This document shows positions 10,042-63,345 of a stretch of DNA of 64,000 nucleotides, one piece after another. This stretch comes from Leisingera sp. ANG-M7. Its GTDB lineage: Bacteria > Pseudomonadota > Alphaproteobacteria > Rhodobacterales > Rhodobacteraceae. Under the pieces are notes generated by a model. That model saw nothing but the letters and a program-made list of their open reading frames with translations, did no database searches and had not been told where the DNA came from. The DNA lies in NCBI RefSeq assembly GCF_000813965.1, contig NZ_JWLI01000016.1, forward strand, positions 186,001 through 250,000, in the 5' to 3' direction. The position numbers and the translations under genes are program-made. Within the stretch, counting starts at the first letter, position 1, and each line of letters starts with the position of its first letter.

Positions 10042-10118
10042 TTCCTGTGGCTCCTGACACTTTTGTCTGCTCGTGTTGCCACGCAGCCTATAAGCAAAGT
10101 GTCAGAACCGCCAAGGCT

Positions 10119-43748: not shown

Positions 43749-43880
43749 TTCACAAGCAGGACATTGTTCTTGGCGCCCCCTTAGCCGTACTTAAAAAAGC
43801 CACACAATGCAACACGAAACCTCGTGTTTTGGCGCTGATCTCGGCATATTGGGCGCAATTATGTTGTTATTTGTGGTTTT
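43728..43880. promoter_or_regulatory. Candidate DeoR-type operator pair (12-bp direct repeat)
   Basis: ATTTGTGGTTTT occurs at 43728-43739, at the start of the regulator gene, and again at 43869-43880, 86 bp before the transporter gene. TTGACG overlaps the region just after the second copy. Direct repeats spaced this way fit looping by a DeoR-family repressor, but this is inference. Confidence 0.35.
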
Positions 43881-43965
43881 TATTGACGAAAAGCCCAGCA
43901 AACTGCACGATACCCCTACGCGACGTCAAGAATCGCACACAACACCACACAACAGGGAAATCCAC

Positions 43966-44913: not shown

Positions 44914-44923
44914 TCCCACTCCT

Positions 44924-44966
44924 CCGGGGCTGCCCTTACGCTCTCAGGCGGCCCCGGCTTTTCTTC
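44924..44966 (+). terminator. Intra-operon terminator after the binding-protein gene
   Basis: CCGGGGCTGCC (44924-44934) pairs with GGCGGCCCCGG (44947-44957) through eleven base pairs including one G-U, with a 12-base loop and a CTTTTCTTCT tract. It sits 10 bp after the binding-protein stop and 60 bp before the ATPase start. It probably acts as a partial terminator that makes the binding protein more abundant than the membrane parts. Confidence 0.75.
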
Positions 44967-45019
44967 TGACCCGTCAATTTTCCCCGGCTGCCCTTGCGGG
45001 CCGGGTCCGGAGCTGCGTG

Positions 45020-48033: not shown

Positions 48034-48035
48034 GC

Positions 48036-48917
48036 ATGAGCCAATCCGACCTGCTTCACAAAATCCGCGCACTGCCCATCTGGCAGGGGGATATCACCGT
48101 TGCTCCGTTGAAAGGCGGCATCACCAACGAGAACTACTTGGTTGAGGACAGCGCCGGAAAATACGTGGTGCGGGCGGGCGACGACATCCCGCTGCATCAG
48201 GTGCTGCGCTTCAACGAACTGGCCGCCAGCCGCGCCGCCCATGCTGCAGGCCTGTCGCCTGCGGTGCTGCATGCCGAAGTCGGCCTGACGGTGCTGGAGT
48301 TCATCGAAAGCCGTACCCTGACCGAGAAGGACGTGGGCGATCCGGCAATGCTGCCGCGGGTGCTGGAGCTGGTTAAATCCTGCCACCGCGATGTGCCCGG
48401 GCATCTGCGCGGCCCGGCGCTGGTGTTCTGGGTCTTCCATGTGATCCGGGATTATGCGGCCACCCTGCGGGATATGGACAGCTCGCATGCGGCACTGGCC
48501 TTGGAACTGGCAGGCATCGGCAGCATGCTGGAACAGGAGGCAGGCCCCTTCGACATAGTCTTCGGACACAACGACCTCTTGTGCGGCAATTTCCTTGATG
48601 ACGGGGAACGGCTCTGGCTGATCGACTTCGACTATGCCGGCTTCGACTCGCCGCTGTTCGACCTTGGAGGCCTCGCCTCGAATAACGGGCTGTCGCAGGC
48701 GCAGGAGCAATGGCTGCTGGAATCCTACTTCGAGGCACCTGTGACCGATGACCTGCTGCATCGCTACAGTGCCATGAAATGTGCTTCGCTTCTGCGCGAG
48801 ACCATGTGGAGCATGGTGTCAGAGATCACTTCCGAAATCGACTTTGACTACGCGGCCTACACCGCCAGCAACCTCGCGCGCTTCCGCGCGGCGCTTGACG
48901 ACTTTCAAAACACCTGA
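48036..48917 (+). CDS. Choline/ethanolamine kinase-like phosphotransferase
   Basis: The 293-aa product belongs to the APH/choline kinase superfamily. PLKGGITNENYLVEDSAGKYVVR forms the nucleotide-binding hairpin with the ATP lysine, HNDLLCGNFL is the catalytic Brenner loop, and WLIDFDYAGFDSPLFDLG carries the metal-binding Asp. This last motif favours choline or ethanolamine kinases over aminoglycoside kinases. Placed directly after a ProU-type importer, it may phosphorylate the imported amino alcohol; the DeoR-type regulator could then sense the phosphorylated product. Confidence 0.85.
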   Translation: MSQSDLLHKIRALPIWQGDITVAPLKGGITNENYLVEDSAGKYVVRAGDDIPLHQVLRFNELAASRAAHAAGLSPAVLHAEVGLTVLEFIESRTLTEKDVGDPAMLPRVLELVKSCHRDVPGHLRGPALVFWVFHVIRDYAATLRDMDSSHAALALELAGIGSMLEQEAGPFDIVFGHNDLLCGNFLDDGERLWLIDFDYAGFDSPLFDLGGLASNNGLSQAQEQWLLESYFEAPVTDDLLHRYSAMKCASLLRETMWSMVSEITSEIDFDYAAYTASNLARFRAALDDFQNT

Positions 48918-48925
48918 GGACTGAC

Positions 48926-51379
48926 ATGACTGAACTTCCCTCAACTGCCAAGGCAGTCATCATCGGCGGCGGCATCATCGGCTGCTCCACTGCCTACCAC
49001 CTGGCCAAGCTGGGCTGGACCGACACCGTTTTGCTGGAGCGGAAAAAGCTGACCTCGGGCACTACCTTCCACGCCGCCGGGTTGGTTGGGCAGCTGCGCT
49101 CGAACGCCAACATCACCCAGCTGCTGGGGTATTCGGTCGATCTCTACAACAAGATCGAAGAGGAAACCGGCCTGGGTACCGGCTGGAAGATGAACGGCGG
49201 ACTGCGGCTGGCCTGCAACGAGGAACGCTGGACAGAGGTCAAGCGCCAGGCCACCACAGCGCATTCCTTCGGTCTGGAGATGGAGCTGCTGACCCCGAAA
49301 GAGGCGCAGGAGCTGTGGCCGCTGATGGATATTTCCGACGTCATCGGCGCCGCCTTCATGCCGACCGACGGCCAGGCCAACCCCTCCGACATCACCCAGG
49401 CGCTGGCCAAGGGCGCGCGGATGGCCGGGGCCAGGATCTTTGAGGACACCAAAGTCACCGATATCGAGATCGAGGACGGCAAGATCCGCGCGGTGATTAC
49501 CGAACATGGCCGCATCGAATGCGAGAAGGTGATCTGCTGTGCCGGCCAATGGACCCGAACCTTTGCCAAGCGGTTCGGGGTCAACGTGCCGCTGGTGCCG
49601 ATGGAGCACCAGTATATGGTCACCGAGCCGTTTGAGGGTGTGCCCTCCGGCCTTCCTACCCTGCGCGACCCGGACCGGCTGACCTACTACAAGGAAGAGG
49701 TCGGCGGGCTGGTGATGGGCGGCTATGAGCCGAACCCGATCCCCTGGGCCACTGACGGCATCCCGCAGGGTTTCCACTACACCCTTTTGGACAGCAACTT
49801 CGACCATTTCGAGCAGTTGATGGAACAGGCGCTTGGCCGGGTGCCGGCACTGGAAAACGCCGGCATCAAAACCCTGACCAACGGGCCGGAAAGCTTCACC
49901 CCCGACGGCAACTTCATCATCGGCGAGGCGCCGGAGCTGCGGAACTTCTATGTTGGCGCGGGCTTCAACGCGTTTGGCATCGCCGCGGGCGGCGGCGCCG
50001 GTATGGCACTGGCGGAATGGGTGAAGAACGGCGAGCCGCCGTTTGACCTCTGGTCCGCTGACATTCGCCGCTTTGGCCGCCCGCATTTTGACACCGACTG
50101 GGTCCGCACCCGCACGGTGGAAGCCTACGGCAAGCATTACACCATGGCCTGGCCGTATGAAGAGCACGACAGCGGCCGCCCCTGCCGCAAGTCGCCGCTG
50201 TACGACACGCTGAAAAGCCAGGGGGCGTGCTTTGGCGAGAAACTCGGCTGGGAGCGCCCGAACTGGTTTGCCGATGCCGCCCGTGGCGAAACTCCCAAGG
50301 ACGTCTACAGCTTCGGCCGCCAGAATTGGTTCGACGCAGTGGGCCGCGAGCACAAGGCGGCGCGCAAGGCGGCAGTGCTGTATGACCAGACATCCTTTGC
50401 CAAATTCTCGCTGAAAGGCCCGGATGCGCTGGCCGCGATGAACTGGATCTGCGCCAACGACGTGAACAAGCCGGTGGGAACTCTGACCTACACCCAGATG
50501 CTGAATGACAAGGGCGGCATCGAATGCGATCTCACGGTGGGCCGCGTCGCGCATGACGAGTTCTACATCGTCACCGGCACCGGTTACGCCACCCATGACT
50601 TCGACTGGATCCGTCGCAATATCCCCGACGGCATGAACTGCCAGCTGTTCGATATCACCTCCTCCAACGCGGTGCTGTCGCTGATGGGGCCGAAGGCGCG
50701 CAGCATCCTCGCCGCTGTCACCCGCGACGATGTCTCCAACGACGAGTTCAAGTTCGGCACCATCCGCACCATCGGCATCGCCGGCTGCCCGGTGCAGGCG
50801 CTCCGCGTGACCTATGTGGGCGAGCTTGGCTGGGAACTGCACCTGCCGGTGGAATACGCCCATACCGTCTATGCCACGCTGATGGAGGCAGGCAAACCGC
50901 ACGGGCTGGTCAATGCCGGCTACCGCTCGATCGAATCCCTTCGTCTGGAAAAAGGCTATCGCGCCTGGGGATCGGACATCGGCCCCGACCACACCCCGTT
51001 CGAGGCCGGGCTCGGCTGGGCGGTCAAGCTCAGTAAGGATATCCCATTCAAGGGTCGTACCGCCGCCGAAGAGCAGAAGGCGCAAGGCGTCAAGAAGATG
51101 CTCGCCTGTTTCACCACAGATCCGGGCGTGGTGCTCCTGGGCCGCGAGACGATCTACCGCAACGGCAAGCGCGCCGGCTGGCTGACTTCCGGCGGCTATG
51201 GCCACACCGTCGGGCAGTCCATCGGCTACGGCTACATCCGCAATCCCGATGGCGTGGATGCCGAATACGTGCTGAGCGGGGACTACGAGTTGGAGGTCGC
51301 CACCGAACGCGTCCCCTGCAAGGTGCAGCTCTCACCTCTTTATGATCCGTCGATGAGCCGGGTGAAGATCTGTACCTGA
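48926..51379 (+). CDS. FAD-dependent oxidoreductase, dimethylglycine/sarcosine dehydrogenase family
   Basis: The 817-aa product has an N-terminal DAO domain (VIIGGGIIGCSTAYHLA at 11-27), the FAO_M central domain, and C-terminal GCV_T plus GCV_T_C domains (about 430-810). His49 in SGTTFHAAGL is where this family links FAD covalently. Such enzymes oxidise N-methyl groups and pass the one-carbon unit to tetrahydrofolate, acting here on a product of the imported methylated amine. It is the last intact gene of the DeoR/ProXVW/kinase cluster; what follows is degraded. Confidence 0.92.
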   Translation: MTELPSTAKAVIIGGGIIGCSTAYHLAKLGWTDTVLLERKKLTSGTTFHAAGLVGQLRSNANITQLLGYSVDLYNKIEEETGLGTGWKMNGGLRLACNEERWTEVKRQATTAHSFGLEMELLTPKEAQELWPLMDISDVIGAAFMPTDGQANPSDITQALAKGARMAGARIFEDTKVTDIEIEDGKIRAVITEHGRIECEKVICCAGQWTRTFAKRFGVNVPLVPMEHQYMVTEPFEGVPSGLPTLRDPDRLTYYKEEVGGLVMGGYEPNPIPWATDGIPQGFHYTLLDSNFDHFEQLMEQALGRVPALENAGIKTLTNGPESFTPDGNFIIGEAPELRNFYVGAGFNAFGIAAGGGAGMALAEWVKNGEPPFDLWSADIRRFGRPHFDTDWVRTRTVEAYGKHYTMAWPYEEHDSGRPCRKSPLYDTLKSQGACFGEKLGWERPNWFADAARGETPKDVYSFGRQNWFDAVGREHKAARKAAVLYDQTSFAKFSLKGPDALAAMNWICANDVNKPVGTLTYTQMLNDKGGIECDLTVGRVAHDEFYIVTGTGYATHDFDWIRRNIPDGMNCQLFDITSSNAVLSLMGPKARSILAAVTRDDVSNDEFKFGTIRTIGIAGCPVQALRVTYVGELGWELHLPVEYAHTVYATLMEAGKPHGLVNAGYRSIESLRLEKGYRAWGSDIGPDHTPFEAGLGWAVKLSKDIPFKGRTAAEEQKAQGVKKMLACFTTDPGVVLLGRETIYRNGKRAGWLTSGGYGHTVGQSIGYGYIRNPDGVDAEYVLSGDYELEVATERVPCKVQLSPLYDPSMSRVKICT

Positions 51380-51387
51380 TCAACGGG

Positions 51388-51576
51388 ATGAGCAACTACC
51401 GCCGCCCCTCGGACGGGATTGCTCAGCGCCCGATCCATATTGCCGCCGCGTTGGAGGAGCGCCAGGGCAAGCCGGTCATCGGCCATGACATCGCGCTTTA
51501 CTGGCGGATCTTCAAAACCCTCGGAATTGCACCGGAAACCGAACAGGGCAGTTTGCTCTCCTCACTGAAAGACTGA
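51388..51576 (+). pseudogene. C-terminal remnant of an Asp/Glu racemase or maleate isomerase-like gene
   Basis: The 62-codon frame contains IHIAAALEERQGKPVIGHD followed by IALYWRIFKTLGI. This resembles the C-terminal end of the maleate isomerase/arylmalonate decarboxylase superfamily, in which a LE-x-x-x-GKPV-x-x-x-x-AL pattern precedes the last helix. The N-terminal 170 or so residues expected for that family are missing, because the fragment begins nine bases after the oxidoreductase stop. It may instead be a genuine small gene; confidence is limited. Confidence 0.45.
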
Positions 51577-51578
51577 CC

Positions 51579-52318
51579 ATGCACAAGATCGTTGCCCTCT
51601 GGGCCATTCCCAGCTCCAGTTTCACCGCCTTCGAATGGATGATTCAGCAACGCGGTAACCTTGTCTGCCTGCACGAACCTTTTGGCTAAGCCTGGTATTA
51701 GGGAGAGGACCCGCTCTGGCCGCGTTTCAGGAAGGGGGAAAAGACAACCCCCAACCTGACTTTGGACAGCGCTTAGGGCGGCATCCGGGATACGGGCGCG
51801 CAAGGGCCCGGTCTTCATCAAGGATTTTCCGCGTTACATCAATCACATGTGGTACGCGGCCCTCTCCCATTTCACCCATGCTTTTCTGATCCGCAATCCG
51901 GCTAAAACCATCACGTCTATGCACCACAAGTGGCCCGGCTGGAAGTCGGGTTCCCCGAGCAGCGGGCCTTGTTCGAATTGCTGACGGCGCTGAAAGGCAA
52001 AACTCCGCCGGTTGTCGACAGTGACGACCTGCTGGAATACTCGGAGGAGTTGGCACGCGCCTTCTGCGATGCAGTTGGCATCTCCTTCTCACAAGAGGCA
52101 CTGACATGGGAAGCCGGAGGCGACCCTTTTGCTCACAACTGATGGGACGGAGGGTCGTTTCATGCAAACCTGGCGCAATCCACCGGCCTGACGCCGCAGA
52201 GGCGCAGGTACATCCGTCTTGAGGACACGCGGGAACGGGTCCAACGGGTACACCACCGGATGAGGCCGCACTACGATCACCTGTACAAACACCGCCTGCG
52301 TGTTCTGCAATCCGCCGG
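51579..52318 (+). pseudogene. Degraded sulfotransferase family gene
   Basis: The first frame reads MHKIVALWAIPSSSFTAFEW and then CLHEPFG before TAA at 51687 and TAG shortly after. Recognisable pieces continue in shifting frames: GEDPLWPRF, GPVFIKDFPRYINHMW, FLIRNPAKTITSMHHKWPG, LEVGFPEQRALFELL, EALTWEAGGDPFAHN, a TGA at 52141, then WDGGSFHANLAQSTGL and MRPHYDHLYKHRLRV. At least three in-frame stops and two or more frameshifts are visible. The intact ancestor would be a protein of roughly 245 residues. It is expected to be non-functional. Confidence 0.75.
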
Positions 52319-53345
52319 CTTAGGCAGGAGTATTTGGAGGATACGGCAGCGCGGGTCAGTGAAAGAAGTCGTCGAAGCCGGTCTATGCATCGGCTGCGGA
52401 CTGTGCGAGGCCCTGACGCCTGAACGCTGGAAAGTGGCCCATACGCCGCAGGGCCGCCTGCGTCCATCCAGGATGGTCGCAGGATCTGATGCGGAGATAC
52501 TGCAGGCCTGCACCGGGGCGGTTGCCCGCCCCAACGGCGAAACCGCCCCGCTCTGGGACGCAGTCTGGGGGTTACTACCGGATGCAGGAGGCCTGGGCTA
52601 GCGATCCTGACACCCGGTTCCGGGCGGCGGCGGGCGGTGTCCTGACCGCGCTTGCAGCACACCTGCTTCGGTCCAGCGAGGCACGTTTCATCCTGCATTG
52701 CGCCGCCGGCCCGCAAGCACCGATGCGATCGGTCTGGTGTCTCAGCGACACGCCCAGCCAGCTCTTGCAGCGCGCAGGATCGCGCTATAGCCCAAGCGAC
52801 ACACTGGCCGGGTTGCAAGCGGCGCTTGACCGCGACGAGCCTTTTGCCGTTATTGCAAAACCCTGCGATGCCGGCGCGCTGCGCGAAGTTGCTAAAACCG
52901 ATCAGCGGCTGGCCAGAAACCTCGTGGCCGTGCTCGATGATTGCAAGCTGTCCGAAACATACGTCGCACTGTCCCGCTACCGGGGCCATGGCAACCCCGG
53001 ACCGACAAGGATCGAAACGCGCGACGGCCGCGCTTTCCAGAAAACTCATGTCGAGATGTAGGCTGACGAAAGCGGCTGGCGAGCAACTTTGCCGCGCCGG
53101 GTGCGAAGCCGGGAGCCTCTCCGCCGACGCAGAGATCCCCCCGCCAGTTCGGCGCCTTTCAGCCGTCTCAAGTCCGCAAAAAGCACGCCTTGGCCGCGCC
53201 GCTTAGAGGTATGGCTGCCGCGGGCTCGCCGGTGTACCGGCATGAAGGCCTGAGGCTGGAAAAGCTCGACACCCGCGATGCCCAGGAGGAGGCGGGAACC
53301 CTGAAGCGTGTCCCCGATGGCAGGTTCTGTGAAAAACTTCCGTAG
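52319..53345 (+). pseudogene. Degraded coenzyme F420 hydrogenase/dehydrogenase beta subunit (FrhB) family gene
   Basis: Pieces of one gene are spread over several frames. RQEYLEDTAARVSE shifts near 52368 into VVEAGLCIGCGLCEAL, a CxxCxxC Fe-S motif. A shift near 52570 leads to GGYYRMQEAWASDPDTRFRA, then AVIAKPCDAGALREVAKTD. A stop at 53059 follows HVEM, and VRKKHALAARLRGMAAAGSP plus EEAGTLKRV appear up to the TAG at 53343-53345. A central section after residues LARNLVAVL is deleted. The family carries Fe-S/FAD domains and acts as an oxidoreductase subunit; here it is dead. Confidence 0.75.
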
Positions 53346-53980
53346 TGGGGGCCAGAGCAAAGGGTTTGACCTGCAATGAAATTGCTGCACGCCGCCCAGC
53401 AGCTTGCATTCAGGTTAGCCTTGATCCGAATTGATCGTTCTGGCGATGCGTTTCGGAAGTGCAGCCAAGGTCACATACCGCTTCGGTCAGTAGTGACGTT
53501 GGACCAGTTCTTCCCGATCATGTTGCACCCAGCATCCATCACAATAACCGCTTCCGGTTGGGTTGCTGGCATTGCTTCAGTCTCCTCAAAAGGAAACACG
53601 GTTCCGCACTGAGCAGGTTTACGATTTCAAGCCGTTTGTGCATTTCCAAGACAATTTCAGTTCGTTTTGCTTAGCAAAGCCGGATTAGCGGCAGAGCAGA
53701 AGGTTTTCGCGCAGCGCCCGCTCGCAGCTTTTAATAGCATTTCCGCAATTGCTCACAGCCGACATCGGTTTCAACGCAGAGCTATGGCGATGACGAAGAG
53801 ATCCGCCGCCATGATCGGCCCAAAGCTGCCGTATGTGCGGCATTCAAATTGCTGCCGTGCGGCCCGCAATTTCGGACTTTCGCGGCCAGCGCGAAACCGT
53901 GCTGGGCCCGCACTCGCGCGATTGGAGACAAGCCTGTTCGCGTAAAAGGAAGAAGAAGCAATTCAGCAAGATGTGCCAGT
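53346..53980. other. Gene-poor 635-bp stretch after the pseudogenes
   Basis: This stretch continues the decayed zone and ends at the convergent LysR gene. Short frames on the plus strand (about 53376-53612 and 53667-53945) lack family features, signal peptides or ribosome sites. Composition is less biased than in flanking genes. No repeat or transposase could be identified. Confidence 0.55.
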
Positions 53981-54850
53981 CTATTGGGTTTGCAACCATC
54001 TTGAAAACACCGCGGCGCAGTCTTGGGAAGCCGCTTTGCGCGGGCGGACCAGAAAGTAGCCGTAGTCCTGCAGCATATACGGTGACAGGCGGAACAGTTT
54101 CTCCTCCTCCAATTCCCGTTCGATCAGCGTGTCCATCAGGGCGATCCCCTGGCCATCTGCAACCGCCTGAACACGCACATTGGGGTCAGGGATGATCAGC
54201 GTGTCCCGGCGCGTCCGGTGCGGCAGCCCCGCGGTATTCAGCCAGTCAGTCCAAGCATCGCTGTCATCATGATCACGCAGCAGCGTAAAGGTTGAAACCG
54301 CTTGCTCCCAGCCGAGCCGCTCCACCGTTTCCAGGGCTGCAGCGTTGCCTGCGGGAAAGGCCGGGCAAGGCAGGAACGGCGCAACGTCGCCATCCCCCCA
54401 CTGCCCATTTCCCCAGCGGATTGCGATGTCAATGCCTTGCGCTTCAAGGTCGAACAGCCGGATCATCGGTTGCAGCCGGAGCTGGATATCCGGATGCGCC
54501 TGCATGAAGGACATCAGCCGCGGTGACAACCAGCGGGCGGCGAAATAGGTGGAGACACCCACCGTCAGGGTTTTGGCAGAGCCCCCTTTGAGGGCCAGAA
54601 TACCAGCCTCGATCTCTTCATAATGGCTTTGACAGGCAGCCAGCAGCTTGACTCCGTCCGGCGTCATCTCGACCCCGCGGACATTGCGATGAAACAGCGC
54701 AAATCCCAGATCCGCCTCCAGCGTTTTCACCTGATAGCTGACCGCGCCCTTGGTCATGTTCAGCGCTCCGGCCGCATCTGAAAAACTGCGGTAACGGGCG
54801 ATCTCAGCAAACAGGCGCAGGCTGTCGTGATGGCGGAATTCTATGGGCAT
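53981..54850 (-). CDS. LysR family regulator, GcvA-like
   Basis: The 289-aa product has an LTTR HTH (RYRSFSDAAGALNMTKGAVSYQ) and the GcvA-type effector domain (AARWLSPRLMSFMQAHPDI, FDLEAQGIDIAIRWGNGQW, NVRVQAVADGQGIALMD). GcvA proteins activate glycine cleavage genes, which fits the GcvT-like gene in the divergent unit. A 9-bp direct repeat TAAATTCCC at 54864-54872 and 54911-54919 lies in the shared 110-bp promoter gap and may be part of the binding site. Confidence 0.9.
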   Translation of the reverse strand: MPIEFRHHDSLRLFAEIARYRSFSDAAGALNMTKGAVSYQVKTLEADLGFALFHRNVRGVEMTPDGVKLLAACQSHYEEIEAGILALKGGSAKTLTVGVSTYFAARWLSPRLMSFMQAHPDIQLRLQPMIRLFDLEAQGIDIAIRWGNGQWGDGDVAPFLPCPAFPAGNAAALETVERLGWEQAVSTFTLLRDHDDSDAWTDWLNTAGLPHRTRRDTLIIPDPNVRVQAVADGQGIALMDTLIERELEEEKLFRLSPYMLQDYGYFLVRPRKAASQDCAAVFSRWLQTQ

Positions 54851-54960
54851 GATGTAATTCGTATAAATTCCCTAGACGCTGCGGGCAAATTATATCGATT
54901 GCTGGCGGCTTAAATTCCCAAAAATATGGATCAATAAACACATTTCCAGGAGTTGCATCG

Positions 54961-56511
54961 TTGGAAAATATGAACGCCGACACCCATATCACTCAGCGCG
55001 GAAAGCCGCGCCGGGGGCGGCTGACCCGGCACAATGCGCCGCAGGCGGCACCGGTGTACAGGCGCCGTCAGATCCCTGCCTACGATCTGCTGGACGAGAC
55101 CGCACTCCGGCGCATCGAAGCTCAGGCGGACTGGATCCTTGAGCATATCGGCGTCGAATTCCGCGGTGATGACACAGCACTTGCGCTGTTTGCCGCAGCC
55201 GGGGCACGCGTTGAGGGCGTCCGGATCCGCTTCGAACCGGGCCATGTGCGCCAGCTTTGCAAAACCGCTCCCGCCGAATTCCAGCTGCATGGCCGTGATC
55301 CCGCCCGCACGGTGACCTTGGGTGGCGACAACTTAGTGCTGATGCCCGGCTATGGCTCGCCCTTTGTCACCGACCTGGAGCAAGGCCGCCGCTATGCCAC
55401 GCTGGAAGATTTCGAAAACTTCGTGAAGCTTTCGCATATGTCGCCCGCCCTGCACCATACCGGCGGCACCGTGGTTGAACCGACCGATGTACCGGTGAAC
55501 AAGCGGCATCTGGACATGATGCTGGCGCATCTCACCCTTTCGGACAAACCCTTCATGGGCGGTGTCACTTCCCTGCAAGCTGCGCAGGAAAGCGTTGAGA
55601 TGGCGCGGCTGGCCTTCGGCGCGGGATTCCTGGACCAAAACGCGGTGATGCAGGCCAATATCAACGTTAATTCGCCGCTGATCTATGACGGGGTGATGTC
55701 TGCCTCCCTGCGCATTTATGCAGCGGCCAACCAATGCGTCTGCATCTCGCCCGCCATCTTTGCCGGCGCCATGGGACCGCTCTCACCGGCAGCGGTTGCC
55801 GCCCAAACCCTGGCAGAGGCGATGGCGGGTATCGCCCTCACCCAGCTGGTGCGCCCTGGCTGCCCGGTCGTCTTCGGCAGCTTTCATTCTTCCATGAACC
55901 TGCGCACCGGCGCGCTGACTTTTGGCTCTCCGGAGGCGAACCTCACCACCATGGCACTGAGCCAGCTGGGCCGCAGGCTGGGGGTGCCGGTGCGGTCCGG
56001 CGGCGGTCAGGTCACTGCCTCCAATACCGCCGACGGCCAGGCGATGCAGGACAGCGCCGGTGCGATGTGGGCCACTCTCCTGTCCGGCGGGCATCAGGTC
56101 TGGCACGCGGCAGGCTGGCTCGAAGGCGGGCTGGTGATGTCCTACGAGAAGTTCGTGATGGACCTCGACCATTGCGGCGCCATGCTGAAGATGCTGCAGG
56201 GGTTCAGCACGGACGACGAGGCCTTTGGCCGCGACGCCTATACCGAGGCCGGACCGGGCGAGAACTTCCTGTCCACCAGCCACACCCTGCGCCACTACAC
56301 AACCGCCAATTTTGAACCGCGGGTGCCCGAAGGCGGCCCCTTTGAAACCTGGGACGAGAACGGCCGCCAGACCGCTGATCAGCGGGCCGCGGCCCGATGG
56401 CGTCAGATGCTGACGGAATTTCAGCCACCGGAAATGCCAGCAGCCACCCGCACAGCCCTGAATGACTTCGTGGCGGAGCGCAAAGCCGCAATGCCCGACG
56501 AATGGTATTGA
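54961..56511 (+). CDS. MttB superfamily (trimethylamine methyltransferase-like) protein, non-pyrrolysine
   Basis: The 516-aa product aligns with MttB-type methyltransferases: ILEHIGVEFRGDDTALALF, PGYGSPFVTDLEQGRRYAT, GGVTSLQAAQESVEMARLAF, TNTADGQ-like ASNTADGQAMQDSAGAMW, and SYEKFVMDLDHCGAMLKML. The frame is continuous with no internal TAG, so no pyrrolysine is used. Relatives demethylate glycine betaine, proline betaine or carnitine. TTG 54961 has AGGAG eight bases upstream; ATG 54970 is the alternative. It forms a unit with the GcvT-like gene 16 bp downstream. Confidence 0.9.
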   Translation: MENMNADTHITQRGKPRRGRLTRHNAPQAAPVYRRRQIPAYDLLDETALRRIEAQADWILEHIGVEFRGDDTALALFAAAGARVEGVRIRFEPGHVRQLCKTAPAEFQLHGRDPARTVTLGGDNLVLMPGYGSPFVTDLEQGRRYATLEDFENFVKLSHMSPALHHTGGTVVEPTDVPVNKRHLDMMLAHLTLSDKPFMGGVTSLQAAQESVEMARLAFGAGFLDQNAVMQANINVNSPLIYDGVMSASLRIYAAANQCVCISPAIFAGAMGPLSPAAVAAQTLAEAMAGIALTQLVRPGCPVVFGSFHSSMNLRTGALTFGSPEANLTTMALSQLGRRLGVPVRSGGGQVTASNTADGQAMQDSAGAMWATLLSGGHQVWHAAGWLEGGLVMSYEKFVMDLDHCGAMLKMLQGFSTDDEAFGRDAYTEAGPGENFLSTSHTLRHYTTANFEPRVPEGGPFETWDENGRQTADQRAAARWRQMLTEFQPPEMPAATRTALNDFVAERKAAMPDEWY

Positions 56512-56527
56512 GAAAGGACCCTGAAAC

Positions 56528-57619
56528 ATGACCGAAGAACTGAACCGCACCTCGGCGCTTGCCTCCCGCCACATTGCCCTGGGATCAGGGCTTGAGGACT
56601 GGAACGGTATGGGCACCGCCTGGACCTACAGCACCGACCCGAACGATGAACACGACGCAGTGCGCGAGCGTGCCGGCATGTTCGATATGTCCCCGCTGAA
56701 GAAGGTGTTTGTCCGCGGCAAGGACGCGCAGGCCGTGCTGGATCACTTGACCACACGCGACCTGTCCAAACTGGCGCCGGGCAAAGCTGCCTACCTCTGC
56801 GTTTTGACCGAAGCGGGCGGCATTGCCGACGACGCCATTGTCTCGAACAACGGCGGCGATGAGTGGATGATCGTGCATGGATCCGGCGATACCATGGCGC
56901 TGCTGCAAGCCTCGGCAAAGGGCCGTGACGTCTGGCTGGAGTTCACCGACGACCTGCACGACGTCTCGGTCCAGGGTCCGGCGGCGCTGGACATCCTGAA
57001 CGCCCTTTGCGACATCGATCTTGCCGGGCTGCGGTATTTTGAACACGCCCCGGCAACCCTGTTTGGCCACCCCTGCCGGATCTCGCGCACCGGCTATTCG
57101 GGCGAACGCGGCTATGAGATCTTTGCCAGCGCCGCAGTGATTATTGATATCTGGGACAAGCTGGCAGAGGCGGGTGTCATGCCGTGCTCTTTCACCGCGC
57201 TCGACAAGGTGCGGATAGAAGCGGGATTGCTGTTCTACGGCTATGACATGACCGAGGTGCACACTCCATGGGAGGTCGGCCTGGGTTTCACAGTCAGCGC
57301 CACGAAGGGCGACTTCCGCGGCAGAGAGGCGGTGATGGCGTCGAAGGGCCGCGAAAAGACTTCAAACGTCTGCCTCGATATTGATCATTCGGACATGGTG
57401 GCGGGCGGAGAGACCTTGCTGCTGGATGGTGAAGAGATCGGCGTGATCAACAGCCCCTGCTATTCGCAACGGATGGGCAAATCGCTGGCGCTGGCACATG
57501 TCCGCCCTGGGATCGACGCGGGATCGGTTCTGCGGCTTAAAAGCGAGACTCTTCAAACCGCCGCAACAGTGGTTGGCAGCCCGGTCTACGACCCGCAAAA
57601 GACACGGACGCATCAATAG
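56528..57619 (+). CDS. Aminomethyltransferase (GcvT-like) family protein
   Basis: The 363-aa product has a GCV_T domain (FDMSPLKKVFVRGKDAQAVL, TEAGGIADDAIV with the catalytic-position Asp, and RTGYSGERGYEIF) and a C-terminal GCV_T_C barrel (EVGLGFTVSATKGDFRGREA). It is a stand-alone T-protein homologue outside a gcvTHP operon. Paired with an MttB-like gene it probably moves a methyl or methylene group to tetrahydrofolate. An AAAGGACC sequence lies just before ATG 56528. Confidence 0.9.
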   Translation: MTEELNRTSALASRHIALGSGLEDWNGMGTAWTYSTDPNDEHDAVRERAGMFDMSPLKKVFVRGKDAQAVLDHLTTRDLSKLAPGKAAYLCVLTEAGGIADDAIVSNNGGDEWMIVHGSGDTMALLQASAKGRDVWLEFTDDLHDVSVQGPAALDILNALCDIDLAGLRYFEHAPATLFGHPCRISRTGYSGERGYEIFASAAVIIDIWDKLAEAGVMPCSFTALDKVRIEAGLLFYGYDMTEVHTPWEVGLGFTVSATKGDFRGREAVMASKGREKTSNVCLDIDHSDMVAGGETLLLDGEEIGVINSPCYSQRMGKSLALAHVRPGIDAGSVLRLKSETLQTAATVVGSPVYDPQKTRTHQ

Positions 57620-57754: not shown

Positions 57755-57991
57755 CCAAGGCCTTTCAGTGGACCAATTTATGCAGTTAGCACCTCACCGG
57801 CACAGCCGACCCATAGCTGACCGTCAACAGCCTGTATCAAGGCCGTCATGCAGCCCGCTTTTGGGGACCTTGGCTCATCGTACAGCATTGCAAGTAAACA
57901 ATTTTCGACAGCACACGGCGGAGCCGTCAATCGCAATTTCTGGGGAGGCTTGCTGAGGCGCAAGGACAGAGCGAACGTATATTTTTCAATA

Positions 57992-58032
57992 TTGACAATC
58001 AATCCAACACCATTATTGTCAAAAGTGACAAT
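57992..58032 (+). promoter_or_regulatory. Promoter and TetR-type operator of the Rieske operon
   Basis: ATTGTCA-AAAG-TGACAAT (58015-58032) is a perfect inverted repeat ending 13 bp before the TetR start, with a third half-site TTGACAAT at 57992-57999. TTGACA at 57992-57997 doubles as a -35, and TATTGT at 58014-58019, 16 bp further, can serve as a -10. The repressor would cover the -10 and the start region, giving autorepression. Confidence 0.65.
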
Positions 58033-58045
58033 TAATGGAGCTGCC

Positions 58046-58636
58046 ATGCCGCGCCCTAGTTTGAAAGACCAGCGTTCCGAGGAAATCCTAGACGCCTACC
58101 TGACTTGCGTTGCCCGCTTTGGGCTGGAAGGGGCAACACAAGAACGGATCGCCGCAGAAGCCGGAGTTAAGCGCCCGCTTCTGCGTCACTACCTCGGCAA
58201 TCGTGATCAAATGGTTGCTGCTCTGAACGCTCATGTCGTTGAGACTTTCAACGAGCTGACGGATACGCTGGCTGTTGCATTGGCCGGCGCACTAAACGCG
58301 GATGACATGGTTGAACTCTTGTTTACTGAGGATGCAGTCAATGATCCCAGGCTACTGCTCGCCTGGCAGGGGCTGTCAGTCTCCTCAGGCGAGAACCCGG
58401 AAATGCGGGCTGACCTGCTGGACAGCCTCGAGCAGTTTCTGAAAGTGCTTAGCGACACTTTGCACCGGATTGTGCCCGCGGCAGCCCCCGCAAAGACCCG
58501 GGCTGTGGCACAAGGTATCTCGTCATGTTTCGTGACGCTCGATTCCCTTTCACCGCTTTCACCACCCGCGGAATGGCGGCGGGAGCTGAAACAGGCAGCC
58601 CTGCTTCTGGCGCGCACTTTGGAGGTTCCGGCATGA
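58046..58636 (+). CDS. TetR family transcriptional regulator
   Basis: The 196-aa product has a TetR HTH (about 8-55: EEILDAYLTCVARFGLEGAT, QERIAAEAGVKRPLLRHYLG) and a variable helical ligand domain. ATG 58046 follows TGGAG; an upstream in-frame extension to 57848 crosses the operator and is rejected. It is the first gene of an operon with a small membrane protein, a Rieske oxygenase, an ABC membrane domain, an exported protein and a reductase, and probably represses them all. Confidence 0.9.
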   Translation: MPRPSLKDQRSEEILDAYLTCVARFGLEGATQERIAAEAGVKRPLLRHYLGNRDQMVAALNAHVVETFNELTDTLAVALAGALNADDMVELLFTEDAVNDPRLLLAWQGLSVSSGENPEMRADLLDSLEQFLKVLSDTLHRIVPAAAPAKTRAVAQGISSCFVTLDSLSPLSPPAEWRRELKQAALLLARTLEVPA

Positions 58637-58896
58637 ACCGCCAAAGGATTTTGAACTACATCGCCTTTCCGATCCTCGGGGCTGCTGCAGTTCTTGGCAT
58701 CTATTGGATTTGGGGGCTTTTGTTTCTGTGGTGGCTGGTCCCTGCTGTGATAAGCGGGCAAGCCCATTTCGTTTTTGAAGTCAGCCGCAGCAAGGATCCT
58801 CTGCTGTTCTGGGCAGTGGTAATCCTCTGGGCTTTAGCCGGGGTCATGATGATCGCGGCCAGCCTGTACCCGCAATACGCCCCATGGCTTGTCTGA
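58633..58896 (+). CDS. Small two-helix membrane protein
   Basis: The 87-aa product has two strongly hydrophobic segments (about 8-42 and 58-80), rich in Trp and Tyr (IYWIWGLLFLWWLVP). It is of unknown function. The ATG overlaps the TetR stop by four bases, with GGAGG seven bases upstream. Its place before a Rieske oxygenase suggests an accessory membrane role, perhaps substrate entry or anchoring of the oxygenase complex. Confidence 0.75.
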   Translation: MNRQRILNYIAFPILGAAAVLGIYWIWGLLFLWWLVPAVISGQAHFVFEVSRSKDPLLFWAVVILWALAGVMMIAASLYPQYAPWLV

Positions 58897-58905
58897 GGCA
58901 GCAAA

Positions 58906-60072
58906 ATGACCCGTATGTATCACAACCTCCCCGTCTCCGCTTACACGTCGCAGGAATGGTTCGACCATGAACAAGCTCTGATCTTTTCCCGCAGCTGGCG
59001 TTATGCCGGGCTTGCAGAAGATGTGCCGGAGCCTGGCCACTACATCTCAGTTCAGGCCGGGCTGAACAACCTCTTCATTGTGATGGGCCGCGACCGCCGT
59101 CTGCGTGCCTTTCACAACATCTGCCGCCATCGCGGAACCCAGCTGATCCGGGCTGTCGGCAAATCGCAGAAGGCGCTGACCTGCCCCTATCACGACTGGA
59201 CCTATGATCTGGAAGGCAACTTGATCTCGGTTCCCGACGAGGAGCGCGAGTATCCAAACGGTATCGACAAGAGCTGCCTTGGCCTGAAGCCTGCAAGTGT
59301 CGACGTCTGGCGCGGCATGCTGTTTGTGCATCCGGACCCGCAGGCCTCCAGCCTGACGCAATGGTTCGGTGCTGTGGATCCGCATCTGGGTCCTCATAAG
59401 CCCGAAGAACTGGCGGAATACACCGAAGCGCGCAATTCTTACGAGATCAAAGCCAACTGGAAAATCGTCGTAGAAAATTACATCGACGTCTATCACCTCA
59501 GCCATCTCCACGCGAACACGCTGCACATGTACGATCATTCTCAGGCTGAATACGGCTGGGTAGGGCCGCACTACCATTTCTGGGAACCTCCCAGCGAGGC
59601 CTATGGCAAGGAGCTGGAAAAAAACCTGCCAACCCCGCGGGTGATCCCTGAACCGCATCGCGGCACTTGGGTTCCAATGCTGTTTCCCGGCATCGGCATC
59701 GGTGCCAGCGAAGACAGCTGGAACCTGTTCACTATCACTCCTTTGGGCCCGGAACTGACGCGGGTCGAAAACCGCACGAAACTCGCCAACGTCTCAGACT
59801 GGGACTACAGCAAGCAGGCTTGGAGCAGCCACAGTTTCTGGAAAGACTTCGGCGGCGCGAAATACGAAGGGGATGACGTTTCGGACGAAGATGACCCAAT
59901 GGCGTCGGGCGATTTCACCGCCGAGGACATCTATGCGTGCGAGCAGCAGCAGAAATCTCTGCAAAGCCCCTATTTTGAGGTCGGCCCGGCGGCCGCGGGC
60001 GAAAGTCCGGTCACCCGGCACCAGCAAGCTGTGCTGGACTTCATTGCAGCGCAGGAGGCCCGAAACGCATGA
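58906..60072 (+). CDS. Rieske non-haem iron oxygenase, alpha subunit (GbcA/demethylase-like)
   Basis: The 388-aa product has a Rieske [2Fe-2S] site with Cys73, His75, Cys93 and His96 (CRHRG, CPYH). Its mononuclear iron site is built from D194, H197 and H202 with the bridging acid E190 (NWKIVVENYIDVYHLSHLH). The architecture matches glycine betaine, stachydrine and related N-demethylating monooxygenases. The electron donor is very likely the FNR/ferredoxin protein at the end of the same operon. The substrate is unknown. Confidence 0.93.
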   Translation: MTRMYHNLPVSAYTSQEWFDHEQALIFSRSWRYAGLAEDVPEPGHYISVQAGLNNLFIVMGRDRRLRAFHNICRHRGTQLIRAVGKSQKALTCPYHDWTYDLEGNLISVPDEEREYPNGIDKSCLGLKPASVDVWRGMLFVHPDPQASSLTQWFGAVDPHLGPHKPEELAEYTEARNSYEIKANWKIVVENYIDVYHLSHLHANTLHMYDHSQAEYGWVGPHYHFWEPPSEAYGKELEKNLPTPRVIPEPHRGTWVPMLFPGIGIGASEDSWNLFTITPLGPELTRVENRTKLANVSDWDYSKQAWSSHSFWKDFGGAKYEGDDVSDEDDPMASGDFTAEDIYACEQQQKSLQSPYFEVGPAAAGESPVTRHQQAVLDFIAAQEARNA

Positions 60073-60959
60073 GGTCCTCTACAAGGCGTCCCTCTGGACG
60101 GCTGACAGGCAGGCCGCTCACCCTGCAAGGGCTGCTGGGGGCTTTCTGGCCGCAGGTCAGTGTCACCTGGGGACTGACCCTGGCCGAAGTGATGATGTTC
60201 GCGCTAATCCCCTTGCTGATAGGGAAGGCCATCGACGGGCTGCTGGCCGCAAATTTCGAAGCGTTCATCCAACTTGGTGCGGTGTTGGGCGGGCTTGTCC
60301 TCCTTGGCACCCTGCGCCGGGTGTACGACACCCGCGCCTATGGCGTTATGCGGGTCGAACTCGGCAAAGAGCTAGCAAAGAGATCGGGAGGCACTCCTGT
60401 CACGCGGCTTAACGCGCGACTTGGCATGGGGCGCGAGCTTGTGGATTTCCTGGAATCCGAGGCTCCTCAGAGCATGACGGCAGTTATCCGGGTCCTTGCC
60501 GCAGTTGTCATTCTGGCAGGTTTCCACCCAGTGCTGGCATTGGCTGCGTTGGCGGCGTTGGCAGCAACCATGCTGACTTATACACTGGCGCACAAAAGGT
60601 TTTTCCGCCTGAATGCAGCTCTCAACGCGCGGGCTGAGCAGCAGGTTGGCGTGCTGGAAACCCGATCGCCCCCGCGGCTGGGGGCGCATCTTCTTTCATT
60701 ACGCAAATCAGAAATCCGCATCTCTGACACCGAGGGCCTGATCTACGGAATGATCCTCGCCGCCCTCCTCGGCATGGAGATGTTCAACCTTTGGTTTGCG
60801 ACCCAATCGCTGGGAGTCTCTGCTGGCGGCGTGTTTTCTATCGTCACCTACAGCTGGGACTTCGTTGAAAGCGCTCTGATCCTGCCGATGACCCTGCAAA
60901 CGCTTTCGCGCCTGTCCGAAATCACTGCACGCATCAACAAAATGGAGGCCGCTGAATGA
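60069..60959 (+). CDS. ABC transporter six-transmembrane domain protein without ATPase
   Basis: The 296-aa product is one ABC exporter-type membrane domain (about six hydrophobic segments between residues 30 and 275) and ends without any Walker motif. The segment RRVYDTRAYGVMRVELGKEL corresponds to the intracellular coupling loop. No ATPase gene lies in the operon. It overlaps the oxygenase stop by four bases and the next gene by four bases. It may be a substrate-binding or assembly protein, or may borrow an ATPase encoded elsewhere. Confidence 0.75.
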   Translation: MRSSTRRPSGRLTGRPLTLQGLLGAFWPQVSVTWGLTLAEVMMFALIPLLIGKAIDGLLAANFEAFIQLGAVLGGLVLLGTLRRVYDTRAYGVMRVELGKELAKRSGGTPVTRLNARLGMGRELVDFLESEAPQSMTAVIRVLAAVVILAGFHPVLALAALAALAATMLTYTLAHKRFFRLNAALNARAEQQVGVLETRSPPRLGAHLLSLRKSEIRISDTEGLIYGMILAALLGMEMFNLWFATQSLGVSAGGVFSIVTYSWDFVESALILPMTLQTLSRLSEITARINKMEAAE

Positions 60960-61435
60960 AACGCGTCACTGCTACCGCAATCGGAACTTTTCTTGCTGCC
61001 GGGCTGGCAATTGCAGCCCCTAGGGGCACGCCTGAAGACCTAGTCAAACGCCATTATTCTGCAATCTCGGTGCCTGCCGCGCACTGGCACGATTGGCACC
61101 CGGAAGCCACCCATAGCATTATCGTTCAATTGGGCACGGGCGCACCAGACTGGAAATTCAGCTATTCATTGTCCGAATGGGAAGTTCAGCCCAACTGGAC
61201 CGAGGACCCCAGGCTCATGGAAGCCATGCAAGGCTATAAGGAAACCGGCCGATCCGAAGCGGTGCTGGAAGTTACCCCAGAAGGCAGCGCAAGTGTCATT
61301 ACCGCCCGGACACAGGTCAGCTATGTCTGGGGTAAATATGATGGGGTGATGACCCAGACCGACCGCTTTGACATCACCACTCTTGCTGGGCGGCCTCTGA
61401 TACGGTCGCTGACTTCCACGTATGACTACCGCTGA
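60956..61435 (+). CDS. Exported protein of unknown function (159 aa)
   Basis: The product has a signal peptide (about 1-21, cleaved near AIAA) and a small alpha/beta domain that may be an NTF2-like fold (TPEDLVKRHYSAISVP at the start, SVITARTQVSYVWGKYDGVM, TQTDRFDITTLAGRPLIRSL). It contains HWHDWHPEATH, a histidine-rich stretch that could bind metal. It overlaps the ABC membrane protein gene by four bases and precedes the reductase gene by seven bases, so it belongs to the oxygenase operon although it acts in the periplasm. Confidence 0.7.
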   Translation: MKRVTATAIGTFLAAGLAIAAPRGTPEDLVKRHYSAISVPAAHWHDWHPEATHSIIVQLGTGAPDWKFSYSLSEWEVQPNWTEDPRLMEAMQGYKETGRSEAVLEVTPEGSASVITARTQVSYVWGKYDGVMTQTDRFDITTLAGRPLIRSLTSTYDYR

Positions 61436-61442
61436 GGCCGCA

Positions 61443-62504
61443 ATGAATACCCGATTTCATACCCTTACCATTGCAGGCATCCGCCAGGAGATTGGCGGCA
61501 ACGCCGCCAGCGTTACCTTTGCCGTGCCGCCGGAGCTGAACGAAACCTTTAGCTGGAGAGCCGGGCAGCATTTGCCCTTGCGGTTTAAGATCGACGGCAA
61601 AGAACACCGCCGCTGTTACACAATCTCCAACCCGCCCGGTGCTCCTCTGCGCATCACGGTCAAGCGGCTCAAAGACGGTGTGGTTTCGAACCATATCGCA
61701 GACAGCCTAAAGGCCGACCAATCCGTGGAGGCGATGCCGCCACTAGGGCAGTTTTCTCTCCAGCCCGACCCGATGGCGCGCCGCACCCACTATTTCTTTG
61801 GCGGCGGCAGCGGAATTACGCCCCTGTTCGCTATGATCAAAGAGCTCCTGGTGCATGAACCGCATTCAGTTGCCCACCTGATATTTGGCAACAAAACTGC
61901 TGACACGATCCTTTTCCGAGAGGAATTGGACGCACTCGCCGACGAACACCCGGATCGATTCACTCTGCGTTATATGCTCTCGTTACCGTCGATGTGGAGC
62001 TGGTTTTCCCCCTGGCGCAGTGGCCGTATCGGTGCTGAGGCCATCAGTGCAGCCTTCGCGGAAACCCCGCCGGTGGCGCAGGACGTAAGATATTGGATCT
62101 GCGGCCCGGGGGCGATGAACAAAAGTGTGCGCGACGCTTTGATGGCACTGGATGTGCCTGCAGGCCGCATTCGCCTGGAGAGCTTCGGCGGTGGTGAAAT
62201 GGAAACCGTTACCGCGATCAAAGGCATTGCCACCACAGCCTCATTTACCCTGAACGGCAGCCGCCAGAGCATTGCGGTGGCCGAAAATCAGACATTGTTG
62301 GAGGCGGCGCTCGCATTCGGGCTGAAACCTCCCTACAGCTGCCAGTCCGGGGTCTGCGGTGCTTGCAAGGCGCGGCTTAAATCAGGCAAGGTTCGCATGC
62401 GAACGCAAATGGCTCTTACCGAAAGAGACATTGAGCAAGGAGACATTCTCACCTGCCAAAGTCTCGCCAAAACGCCCAAACTAGAGATTGAGTTTCCATG
62501 CTAA
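61443..62504 (+). CDS. FNR-type oxidoreductase with C-terminal [2Fe-2S] ferredoxin (GbcB/PaaE-like)
   Basis: The 353-aa product has an FAD-binding domain (about 10-105, RRCYTISNPPG), an NAD(P)-binding domain (FFGGGSGITPLFAMI, YWICGPGAMN) and a plant-type [2Fe-2S] domain with CQSGVCGAC and a final Cys in ILTCQS. It is the electron-transfer partner expected for the Rieske oxygenase. ATG 61443 has GAGG upstream; ATG 61422 lies inside the previous gene without a ribosome site. It closes the operon. Confidence 0.93.
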   Translation: MNTRFHTLTIAGIRQEIGGNAASVTFAVPPELNETFSWRAGQHLPLRFKIDGKEHRRCYTISNPPGAPLRITVKRLKDGVVSNHIADSLKADQSVEAMPPLGQFSLQPDPMARRTHYFFGGGSGITPLFAMIKELLVHEPHSVAHLIFGNKTADTILFREELDALADEHPDRFTLRYMLSLPSMWSWFSPWRSGRIGAEAISAAFAETPPVAQDVRYWICGPGAMNKSVRDALMALDVPAGRIRLESFGGGEMETVTAIKGIATTASFTLNGSRQSIAVAENQTLLEAALAFGLKPPYSCQSGVCGACKARLKSGKVRMRTQMALTERDIEQGDILTCQSLAKTPKLEIEFPC

Positions 62505-62946
62505 CGTGCCAAATGAGGGGTCTCAATCCTTTTTCGGTCCGCTGCACATTACCCCACGCGAGATCCCTGACAGCCGCGCCTCATCTTCCGGCTCCCATTT
62601 CTGACGCAGGCCACGCACATAATCCGCGTCACTCTTCAAACGGGACACCCTTTTCGTGTAGTGCCACGCGCGCAATACGACTGTAGACGCTGAATTGGTA
62701 GCCAAGTAGCACAACAGGTTTTCTCATTCTTCCAGGATTAGCTATCAGATGCTCGCGCTGAAAGAGCCACGTGCAAATGGTTGCGAACGAAGTGCCACCT
62801 GAAACAATTTTCGCCGCACCTGGACTGCAGGCAGAACGCGGGCGGAGCCAGGTCGCGAACTGCAGGGCCGGGGTATTCCGTTCTGGAACGGCCATTCGCG
62901 CGGCGCGCGATGAGACCCTGGTCCGATCCCATTCATGCCCCAAAAG
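62505..62946. other. Junction region with gene fragments
   Basis: Between the reductase gene and the RidA gene, this 442-bp stretch contains the GST fragment and otherwise unassigned frames on the minus strand that look like pieces joined by recombination. No promoter, terminator or insertion sequence end was recognised. Confidence 0.5.
62629..62727 (-). pseudogene. Glutathione S-transferase N-terminal fragment
   Basis: The frame from ATG 62727 reads MRKPVVLLGYQFSVYSRIARV and then ALHEKGVPFEE before a stop, which is the first strand-helix-strand of a GST thioredoxin-like domain. The remaining 170 or so residues are missing. It is best read as a truncated GST gene at a recombination junction. 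Confidence 0.5.
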
Positions 62947-63345
62947 TTAGCTTGGCTCCATGGCGGCCACCACCTTGATCTCGACGACCACGCCCTCCCT
63001 GCGCAATCCTGCGACCTCAACCGCTGTCCATGCGGGAAAGGGGGCCGAAATATATTTGGAACGGACCGCGCAGAACCTATCGAAGTGATCCCGAAGGCCG
63101 ACATGATAGGTCGTCATCTCGACAATCGAGTCGAAGTCCAGTCCGGCTTCCCGAAGGACTGCACCGATCTTCTCGAATGCCTGCCGGAATTGCTCTTCCA
63201 GATTCTCTGGCGTCTCGCCGTCCTGGCCGCTTCCAGTCATGCCCGTCACAAAGACATGGTTGCCAGAAATGACCCCCGGTGAAAGCTTGATCTGGTCAGC
63301 CGTTGCCCGTGACTCTCTGGCCGGAAAGAGTGCGCGCCGCGCCAT
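62947..63345 (-). CDS. RidA (YjgF/YER057c/UK114) family protein
   Basis: The 132-aa product has the RidA trimer core: QIKLSPGVISGNHVFVTGMTG, QFRQAFEKIGAVLREAGL and VVEIKVVA. Canonical RidA hydrolyses reactive imines from PLP enzymes through an arginine in the FPAR segment. Here that segment reads FPAWTAVEVAGL, so the arginine is replaced by tryptophan and imine deaminase activity is doubtful. GAGGGA precedes ATG 63345. No obvious operon partner. Confidence 0.85.
   Translation of the reverse strand: MARRALFPARESRATADQIKLSPGVISGNHVFVTGMTGSGQDGETPENLEEQFRQAFEKIGAVLREAGLDFDSIVEMTTYHVGLRDHFDRFCAVRSKYISAPFPAWTAVEVAGLRREGVVVEIKVVAAMEPS

Follow-up and report, generated by a model that had tools for sequence, protein, structure and literature searches.

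A TetR-preceded Rieske oxygenase operon with a conserved two-helix membrane partner in Leisingera sp. ANG-M7

Using a combination of computational methods (profile searches, comparison of gene neighbourhoods, structure models and an oxygenase tree), we analysed a 64-kb stretch of the 4.58-Mb genome of Leisingera sp. ANG-M7 (hereafter the window, meaning the whole stretch) and found that it carries, on the plus strand, an operon of six reading frames. The operon core consists of Mem87 (a two-helix membrane protein), Rsk (a Rieske oxygenase) and a PaaE-like reductase, usually together with a TetR-family repressor, and two further genes are accessories. The order and conservation of TetR, Mem87, Rsk and reductase, the paired operator-like sites and the link between Mem87 and Rieske enzymes were computed directly. 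The recurrence of Mem87 with Rsk in many bacteria points to the cell membrane as the enzyme's place of work, and with slightly better than even confidence we regard the operon as encoding an inducible, membrane-docked, two-component Rieske monooxygenase under TetR control, the substrate of which is possibly an N-methylated amphiphile.

The operon begins with the TetR gene (positions 58046 to 58636; 196 amino acids; PF00440 TetR_N, 26.4 bits), followed by the genes for Mem87 (58633 to 58896; 87 amino acids; no Pfam family cut-off is reached), the oxygenase alpha subunit Rsk (58906 to 60072; 388 amino acids), an ABC_membrane_3 (PF13748) protein (60069 to 60959), an exported protein of 159 amino acids (60956 to 61435; no Pfam match) and an NADH reductase (61443 to 62504; FAD_binding_6, NAD_binding_1 and a C-terminal Fer2 [2Fe-2S] domain in Pfam). 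A preliminary description of this DNA had stated that six genes are joined by overlaps or tiny gaps, and all six reading frames are indeed present in that arrangement: overlaps of 4 nucleotides occur between TetR and Mem87, between Rsk and the PF13748 gene and between the latter and the exported gene, and 9 nucleotides separate Mem87 from Rsk. The reductase frame was listed with a start at 61422, which overlaps the exported gene by 14 nucleotides. The ATG at 61443 matches the reductase start in several relatives and leaves a gap of 7 nucleotides, and because these relatives start there, the true start is probably 61443 rather than 61422. The same order was sought in relatives: among the 80 nearest named loci, 7 have all six genes together and dozens have the TetR-Mem87-Rsk-reductase core; because of this recurrence, the six-gene arrangement is not due to chance. 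In the NCBI annotation of one plasmid copy, the operon reads TetR, hypothetical, SRPBCC and 2Fe-2S protein.

Conservation was scored by profile searches in these 80 loci, the best of 229 confirmed stretches from a scan of genome contigs with Rsk, many of which are mutually close relatives (Rsk identity to the window protein, 62-88%). Mem87 immediately precedes Rsk in 71 of the 80 loci, among them metagenome-assembled genomes titled Chloroflexi, Poribacteria, Dadabacteria and Acidimicrobiia, so that the oxygenase-reductase pair is not conserved without membrane or exported genes in all relatives. The reductase lies downstream of Rsk in 71 of 76 loci (four loci with less than 3 kb of downstream DNA were left out of this and the accessory counts; the reductase is present in all four of them too). 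A TetR gene occurs upstream on the same strand in 53 of the 73 loci with at least 1.3 kb of upstream DNA (seven were left out), and a divergent TetR stands instead in two. The linkage of three membrane or exported genes to the oxygenase-reductase pair, proposed earlier, holds, but not as one set: Mem87 belongs to the core, whereas the PF13748 gene (13/76 loci) and the exported gene (30/76) vary separately. The record titles of the loci name Alpha- and Gammaproteobacteria, Dadabacteria, Poribacteria, Chloroflexi, Acidimicrobiia and others, it being understood that titles of metagenome-assembled genomes may reflect faulty binning. Within the window's own family, the Rhodobacteraceae, Rsk was found in 6 of 248 drawn genomes, its own included (E up to 1e-90). 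Outside the operon, the flanking genes vary from genome to genome, and no flanking family is common to most of the named loci.

Mem87 comprises two hydrophobic segments in the window protein, and its conserved positions are W27, G28, F31, W34, G42, R52, P56, W60 and W66. Because the N-terminus is on average positive (mean charge +1.5) and the loop negative (-1.7), the positive-inside rule predicts a hairpin whose two ends face the cytoplasm. To follow Mem87 independently of its neighbours, we searched 385 genomes of the window's class with a Mem87 profile, Rieske genes not being considered in the search, and obtained 12 matches beyond the window's own. All nine of those with E below 1e-13 adjoin a Rieske gene, the product of which is 65% identical to Rsk in one case, 53% in two and 32-35% in six. 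Of the three weaker matches, one adjoins a PF13748 gene and the other two are partial, in large reading frames. A second sample drew on the named loci for 23 genomes that were distant or had no local Mem87: Mem87 was found in 19, with Rsk within the fetched stretch for 16 of 21 matches. Finally, in 321 genomes of the class of locus L084 (titled Gammaproteobacteria), strong matches were found in three and weak ones in two. The three strong matches are L084 itself and two in-frame fusions of Mem87 to the C-terminus of a protein with two glyoxalase (VOC) domains (L197:595-1731 and L198:1418-2485). For one fusion the 14-kb contig was checked, for the other 3.1 kb of a contig of 4.6 kb, and neither stretch contains a Rieske gene. 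Such a fusion is as expected of an enzyme-docking module, and Mem87 is perhaps a portable membrane module.

Several Mem87 copies have other neighbours. Genes of a DUF2141 family (one member was scored by Pfam) occur in eight loci, directly before TetR in six and beside a distant Mem87 in L052 and L054. In Ruegeria (L187, L188, L193, L203 and L204), Mem87 is accompanied by DUF2141/DUF1800/DUF1501-type genes; in this group, which resembles L051, DUF2141 was scored by Pfam in L187, DUF1800 in L188 and DUF1501 in L051, the others being assigned by eye. Upstream in L188 there is also a weak FadL/TodX-like outer-membrane protein (24.1 bits; cut-off, 29.7).

The control region contains two operator-like sites, to which no strand is assigned. 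The second (58016 to 58031) is a perfect TTGTCA-N4-TGACAA within a perfect 7-bp inverted repeat, and the first (57983 to 57998; TTTTCA-N4-TGACAA), found at the equivalent place in relatives, has one mismatch to that pattern. We surveyed 64 related loci, including the window, for sites with up to one mismatch (L051 was left out for its wrong TetR start, and four of the 64 TetR genes are not directly before Rsk). At least one site lies upstream of TetR in 54 of the 64 loci, ten having none, as compared with 0.02 loci on average after mononucleotide shuffling of the upstream regions. The sites are paired in 36 of the 54 loci, with a spacing of 34 bp (33 bp in the window), and a perfect site is present in 44 of the 64. 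A scan of 27 genome entries (G110 and G633 among them being the same genome) yielded 45 perfect sites in 23 entries, 34 of them at the operon and 11 elsewhere, as compared with 1 for the reversed pattern. The nine off-operon sites that were inspected, considered as second TetR targets, all fall within reading frames (four MurE-like by eye) and were read as chance or coding matches; as judged from these sites, the operon to which TetR belongs is most likely its sole target. That TetR is a BetI choline repressor was ruled out by its scores with the two BetI models, 42 and 40.7 bits, far under the respective cut-offs of 201.3 (TIGR03384) and 118.

Rsk exceeds the cut-offs of PF00355 (Rieske, 63.5 bits) and PF00848 (Ring_hydroxyl_A, 78.2 bits), and carries both the C-x-H...C-x2-H Rieske motif and a mononuclear-iron site. 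By motif, C73, H75, C93 and H96 are the predicted Rieske ligands, H197 and H202 the predicted ligands of the mononuclear iron, with D341 as probably a further one, and D194 the putative bridging residue; these eight residues are invariant in all 52 aligned rows. In a structure search with the AlphaFold model of Rsk (pLDDT 86.1), ranks 1 to 18 are occupied by CntA, Stc2 (stachydrine demethylase) and TM1040_3219, followed by HcaE and others. The best NCBIfam oxygenase model is GbcA (NF058607), at 131.1 bits under a cut-off of 670. We then placed Rsk in a tree of 56 oxygenase rows, in which the deepest forks are left open and which does not include Stc2, CntA or any GbcA above its cut-off. The long L158 fragment, the short L003 and L005, five duplicates and a second L160 row were dropped, and the YeaW and HcaE fragments were replaced by the annotated genes. 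The Rsk family forms a starred clade of 18 rows (98/99), which lies inside a starred set of 32 rows together with five of the six distant Mem87-linked enzymes, the sixth (L117) standing elsewhere. The GbcA-like rows (L006 of the same Leisingera genome, 516.7 bits, and L144 of S. meliloti, 517.2 bits; both under the cut-off of 670) and E. coli YeaW fall outside this set. On the tree, the Mem87 label needs three changes, which are forced by starred branches, as compared with 18 in shuffles; of the labels themselves, L150 and L151, marked as lacking Mem87, have little upstream DNA, and L051, marked as having it, has its copy about 6.5 kb away.

The reductase has the domain order FAD-NAD-Fer2, as in PaaE, and its best model by far is PaaE (TIGR02160) with 271 bits, under the cut-off of 420.8; GbcB, with 126.5 bits, also stays under its own. 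The domains of oxygenase and reductase look like the two-component design recognised in the preliminary description. The likeness to GbcA/GbcB drawn there is retained for this two-component appearance, but not beyond it, the reductase being closest to PaaE and the oxygenase standing apart from the GbcA-like and YeaW rows; CntA is among the top structural neighbours of Rsk, but two of three active-site positions differ.

As for the accessory genes, the PF13748 protein scores 166.7 bits (gathering score, 27) and was rightly described as lacking an ATPase, the window protein being devoid of both Walker A and LSGGQ motifs; a Walker-A-like string occurs in 1 of the 12 listed PF13748 relatives. The exported protein has a hydrophobic N-terminus with a signal-like helix. 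Its AlphaFold model (pLDDT 79.2) gave Foldseek matches at E values of 5e-5 and weaker and TM-scores of about 0.4-0.5, many of the top 50 matches in the Protein Data Bank (PDB) being NTF2-like, so the modelled fold is NTF2-like. A dioxygenase beta subunit was considered and rejected: such folds match too, but the N-terminus is signal-like. In locus L025 only a remnant of the PF13748 gene is left, and L063 has two exported genes in tandem, which fits optional, changing accessories. In the five loci with a PF13748 gene and no local Mem87 (L051, L052, L054, L056 and L058), the PF13748 gene sits between oxygenase and reductase, as if replacing Mem87. Elsewhere, a PF13748 gene (L116:6740-7630; 51% identity to that of the window) stands beside a divergent TetR, with no Rieske gene within the 16 kb looked at, and in L085 a B12-binding radical SAM gene (9146-10402) lies between oxygenase and reductase.

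We propose that the operon operates as follows. TetR would bind the paired palindromes before its own gene, keeping the operon off until a ligand arrives. The Mem87 hairpin would hold the soluble oxygenase at the inner membrane, where it could take a membrane-partitioning substrate. Electrons would pass from NADH to the flavin of the PaaE-like reductase, its [2Fe-2S] cluster and the Rieske centre of Rsk, and then, via D194, to the mononuclear iron of the neighbouring subunit, the substrate being hydroxylated or dealkylated. The PF13748 and NTF2-fold proteins, as optional helpers in part of the Rhodobacteraceae-type loci, may handle a lipophilic ligand at the envelope. The substrate itself may be a lipophilic or amphiphilic N-methyl or quaternary amine, the small head group of which could, as a guess, be demethylated by a neighbouring MttB-GcvT pair.

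This last pair belongs to a cassette adjacent to, and outside, the operon, which comprises a LysR regulator (53981 to 54850, minus strand), an MttB-superfamily methyltransferase (54961 to 56511, plus strand; PF06253, 674.5 bits) and a GcvT-like folate methyltransferase (56528 to 57619, plus strand; PF01571, 231.7 bits). Among the upstream genes tested, only LysR-MttB-GcvT recurs beside the operon, in 1 of the 80 named loci (Hoeflea poritis), where it lies on the opposite side of the operon (identities of 54.5, 69 and 72%, respectively). The MttB subtype (at least 64% identity) occurs in 6 of the 248 family genomes, the window's own included; this genome and G200 also carry Rsk, and the co-occurrence has a Fisher p of 0.007 with the window's own genome counted, the same 248 genomes being assumed. 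This association lends weak to moderate support to an N-methylated substrate, which is possible in view of CntA and Stc2 as top structural neighbours and of the cassette standing beside the operon in two orders. In four family genomes in which the scan found no Rsk (L208, L209, L210 and L211), the LysR-MttB pair is present, with a GcvT match in L210 only; the pair is a separate unit of its own.

Several observations weigh against the membrane-docked reading, or against its N-methyl part. With regard to Mem87, it is missing beside Rsk in 9 of the 80 loci; in the 23-genome sample it was not found in four genomes (those of L034, L083, L086 and L091), and the genomes of L056 and L058 carry it on the contig of Rsk, at a distance of over 100 kb; nine rows of the 32-row set are labelled as lacking it; and it also occurs with no Rieske gene nearby, in the VOC fusions and the DUF2141/DUF1800-type cluster. 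With regard to the substrate, the E-value gap in the structure search is modest (1.7e-22 versus 7.3e-20 for an aromatic dioxygenase). The bridging residue of CntA is the glutamate E205 (PMC7948474), and some group V members have a Cys-x2-Cys by the iron (PMC10952381), the Cys206/Cys209 pair in CntA, whereas Rsk has Asp194 in 52 of 52 rows in place of Glu205, and V195/L198 in place of the cysteine pair, no cysteine occurring there in the rows of the Rsk family. Y192, equivalent to the pi-cation tyrosine at CntA position 203, is invariant in the 52 rows; tyrosine or phenylalanine is also frequent there in the comparators, HcaE included, which rules this residue out as proof of a quaternary-ammonium substrate. 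We therefore do not file Rsk as a group V enzyme, though it may work like one. Lastly, with the window's own genome excluded, the MttB subtype occurs in 1 of 5 Rsk genomes versus 4 of 242 others (Fisher p of 0.098), and in the closest relative, G200, a distance of 344 kb separates MttB and Rsk.

An ordinary soluble quaternary-ammonium N-demethylase of group V (like GbcA/GbcB, CntA/CntB or Stc2), acting on a small betaine with the membrane and exported genes serving betaine uptake, would account for the CntA and Stc2 neighbours, for GbcA as best model, for the genes of betaine-transporter, DMGDH-like, MttB and GcvT type that closely precede the operon in the window and for the Hoeflea cassette. 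We judge it unlikely, considering the distance to the GbcA cut-off, the separation of the Rsk clade from the GbcA-like and YeaW rows, the absence of the bridging glutamate and of the cysteine pair, and the GbcA-like gene that the genome already has (itself under the cut-off). Moreover, of the tested upstream genes only the LysR-MttB-GcvT cassette recurs, in one of the named loci, MttB and GcvT are not beside the operon in G200, and with its two helices Mem87 cannot be recognised as a betaine transporter. It is also improbable, in our estimate, that the operon is a detoxification module, in which TetR senses a toxic lipophilic compound that the docked oxygenase oxidises in one step, with no catabolic pathway after it. 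The unit is self-contained, with its own repressor and with operator sites elsewhere mostly inside reading frames, and its varied flanks and patchy distribution in the family would suit such a role; yet the lack of a flanking family common to most loci also means that neither an efflux pump nor a resistance enzyme accompanies the operon consistently, the MttB-GcvT cassette is linked in two genomes, and a reductase and an oxygenase alone cannot tell detoxification from catabolism. Less credible still, in our opinion, is that Mem87, instead of docking the oxygenase, feeds it as a small transporter or as a channel delivering the ligand: conserved W, R and P residues mark its two hydrophobic helices, and a PF13748 membrane protein is present in the same operon in the five loci devoid of a local Mem87, but two helices are few for a transporter, and the in-frame VOC fusion fits tethering better.

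Going beyond the membrane-docked monooxygenase, a broader proposal is that Mem87 is a hitherto undescribed, portable docking domain by which soluble metalloenzymes (Rieske enzymes in several phyla, VOC proteins by fusion) are recruited to the inner membrane. Combined with Rsk and the reductase, it would make up a widespread Rieske oxygenase of the membrane surface that acts on N-methylated amphiphiles and has passed from phylum to phylum among marine bacteria; we put this forward tentatively, as doubtful rather than probable.

The surroundings of the operon contribute the following observations. Upstream, the window contains a betaine-type island (42963-57619: DeoR, OpuAC binding protein, ABC ATPase, permease, choline-kinase-like, DMGDH-like FAD+GcvT protein, LysR, MttB and GcvT); it was rejected as functional context, since in the closest relative (L118, G200) no MttB or GcvT match lies beside the operon. 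Downstream, on the minus strand (62523-63345), fragments resembling a broken glutathione transferase precede a RidA-like frame (by eye). In seven loci (L022, L024, L026, L037, L065, L069 and L072), TctA/TctC-like transporter genes (by eye) and a Lyase_1-type gene lie upstream of TetR. They are possibly linked to the operon; Lyase_1 was scored in L022 only, and in L069 a DUF2141 gene lies in between. The downstream genes of a Dadabacteria locus, mostly of house-keeping types, were set aside as context, and so was the homarine pathway, as nothing connecting homarine to the operon was found in the literature search. The same search, which did not extend to subscription papers and preprints, found no description of the operon or of Mem87.

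Together, these data describe an enzyme system of a familiar type, accompanied by a membrane protein that is conserved widely and for which no description was found. Bacterial Rieske oxygenases are usually treated as soluble. A small membrane partner retained next to one subfamily, across records whose titles name several phyla, and elsewhere fused to a different class of enzyme would amount to a new part of Rieske systems, and would also supply a testable rule by which their membrane-acting members could be recognised. The conserved operator offers a direct route to the inducer, and therefore to the substrate.

Compared with known systems, the carnitine monooxygenases CntA/CntB and YeaW/YeaX (group Va) resemble the Rsk system in their Rieske and 2-His-1-carboxylate layout and separate reductase. 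CntA is the best PDB fold match of Rsk and also has a tyrosine at the pi-cation position, where tyrosine or phenylalanine is common in comparators too, whereas Rsk differs by its bridging aspartate, its lack of the cysteine pair and its own clade; the annotation around yeaW in E. coli MG1655 gives no sign of a Mem87-like membrane partner, whereas Rsk has a conserved one. GbcA/GbcB and Stc2 (group Vb) share the two-component N-demethylase design, and GbcA gives the best NCBIfam model for Rsk, but at 131 bits versus 670, with GbcA-like rows in another clade and a reductase that is best described as PaaE. KshB has the domain order FAD-NAD-Fer2. The 3-ketosteroid 9-alpha-hydroxylase KshA/KshB is likewise a Rieske monooxygenase with a reductase, acting in steroid degradation, but KshA_C matches Rsk at 13.7 bits only. 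Of the plant chloroplast Rieske oxygenases (TIC55, PAO, CAO and PTC52), some work at a membrane, with membrane anchors, TIC55 being an envelope protein; in the operon described here, by contrast, the membrane part is a separate bacterial gene, which is also found fused to another enzyme.

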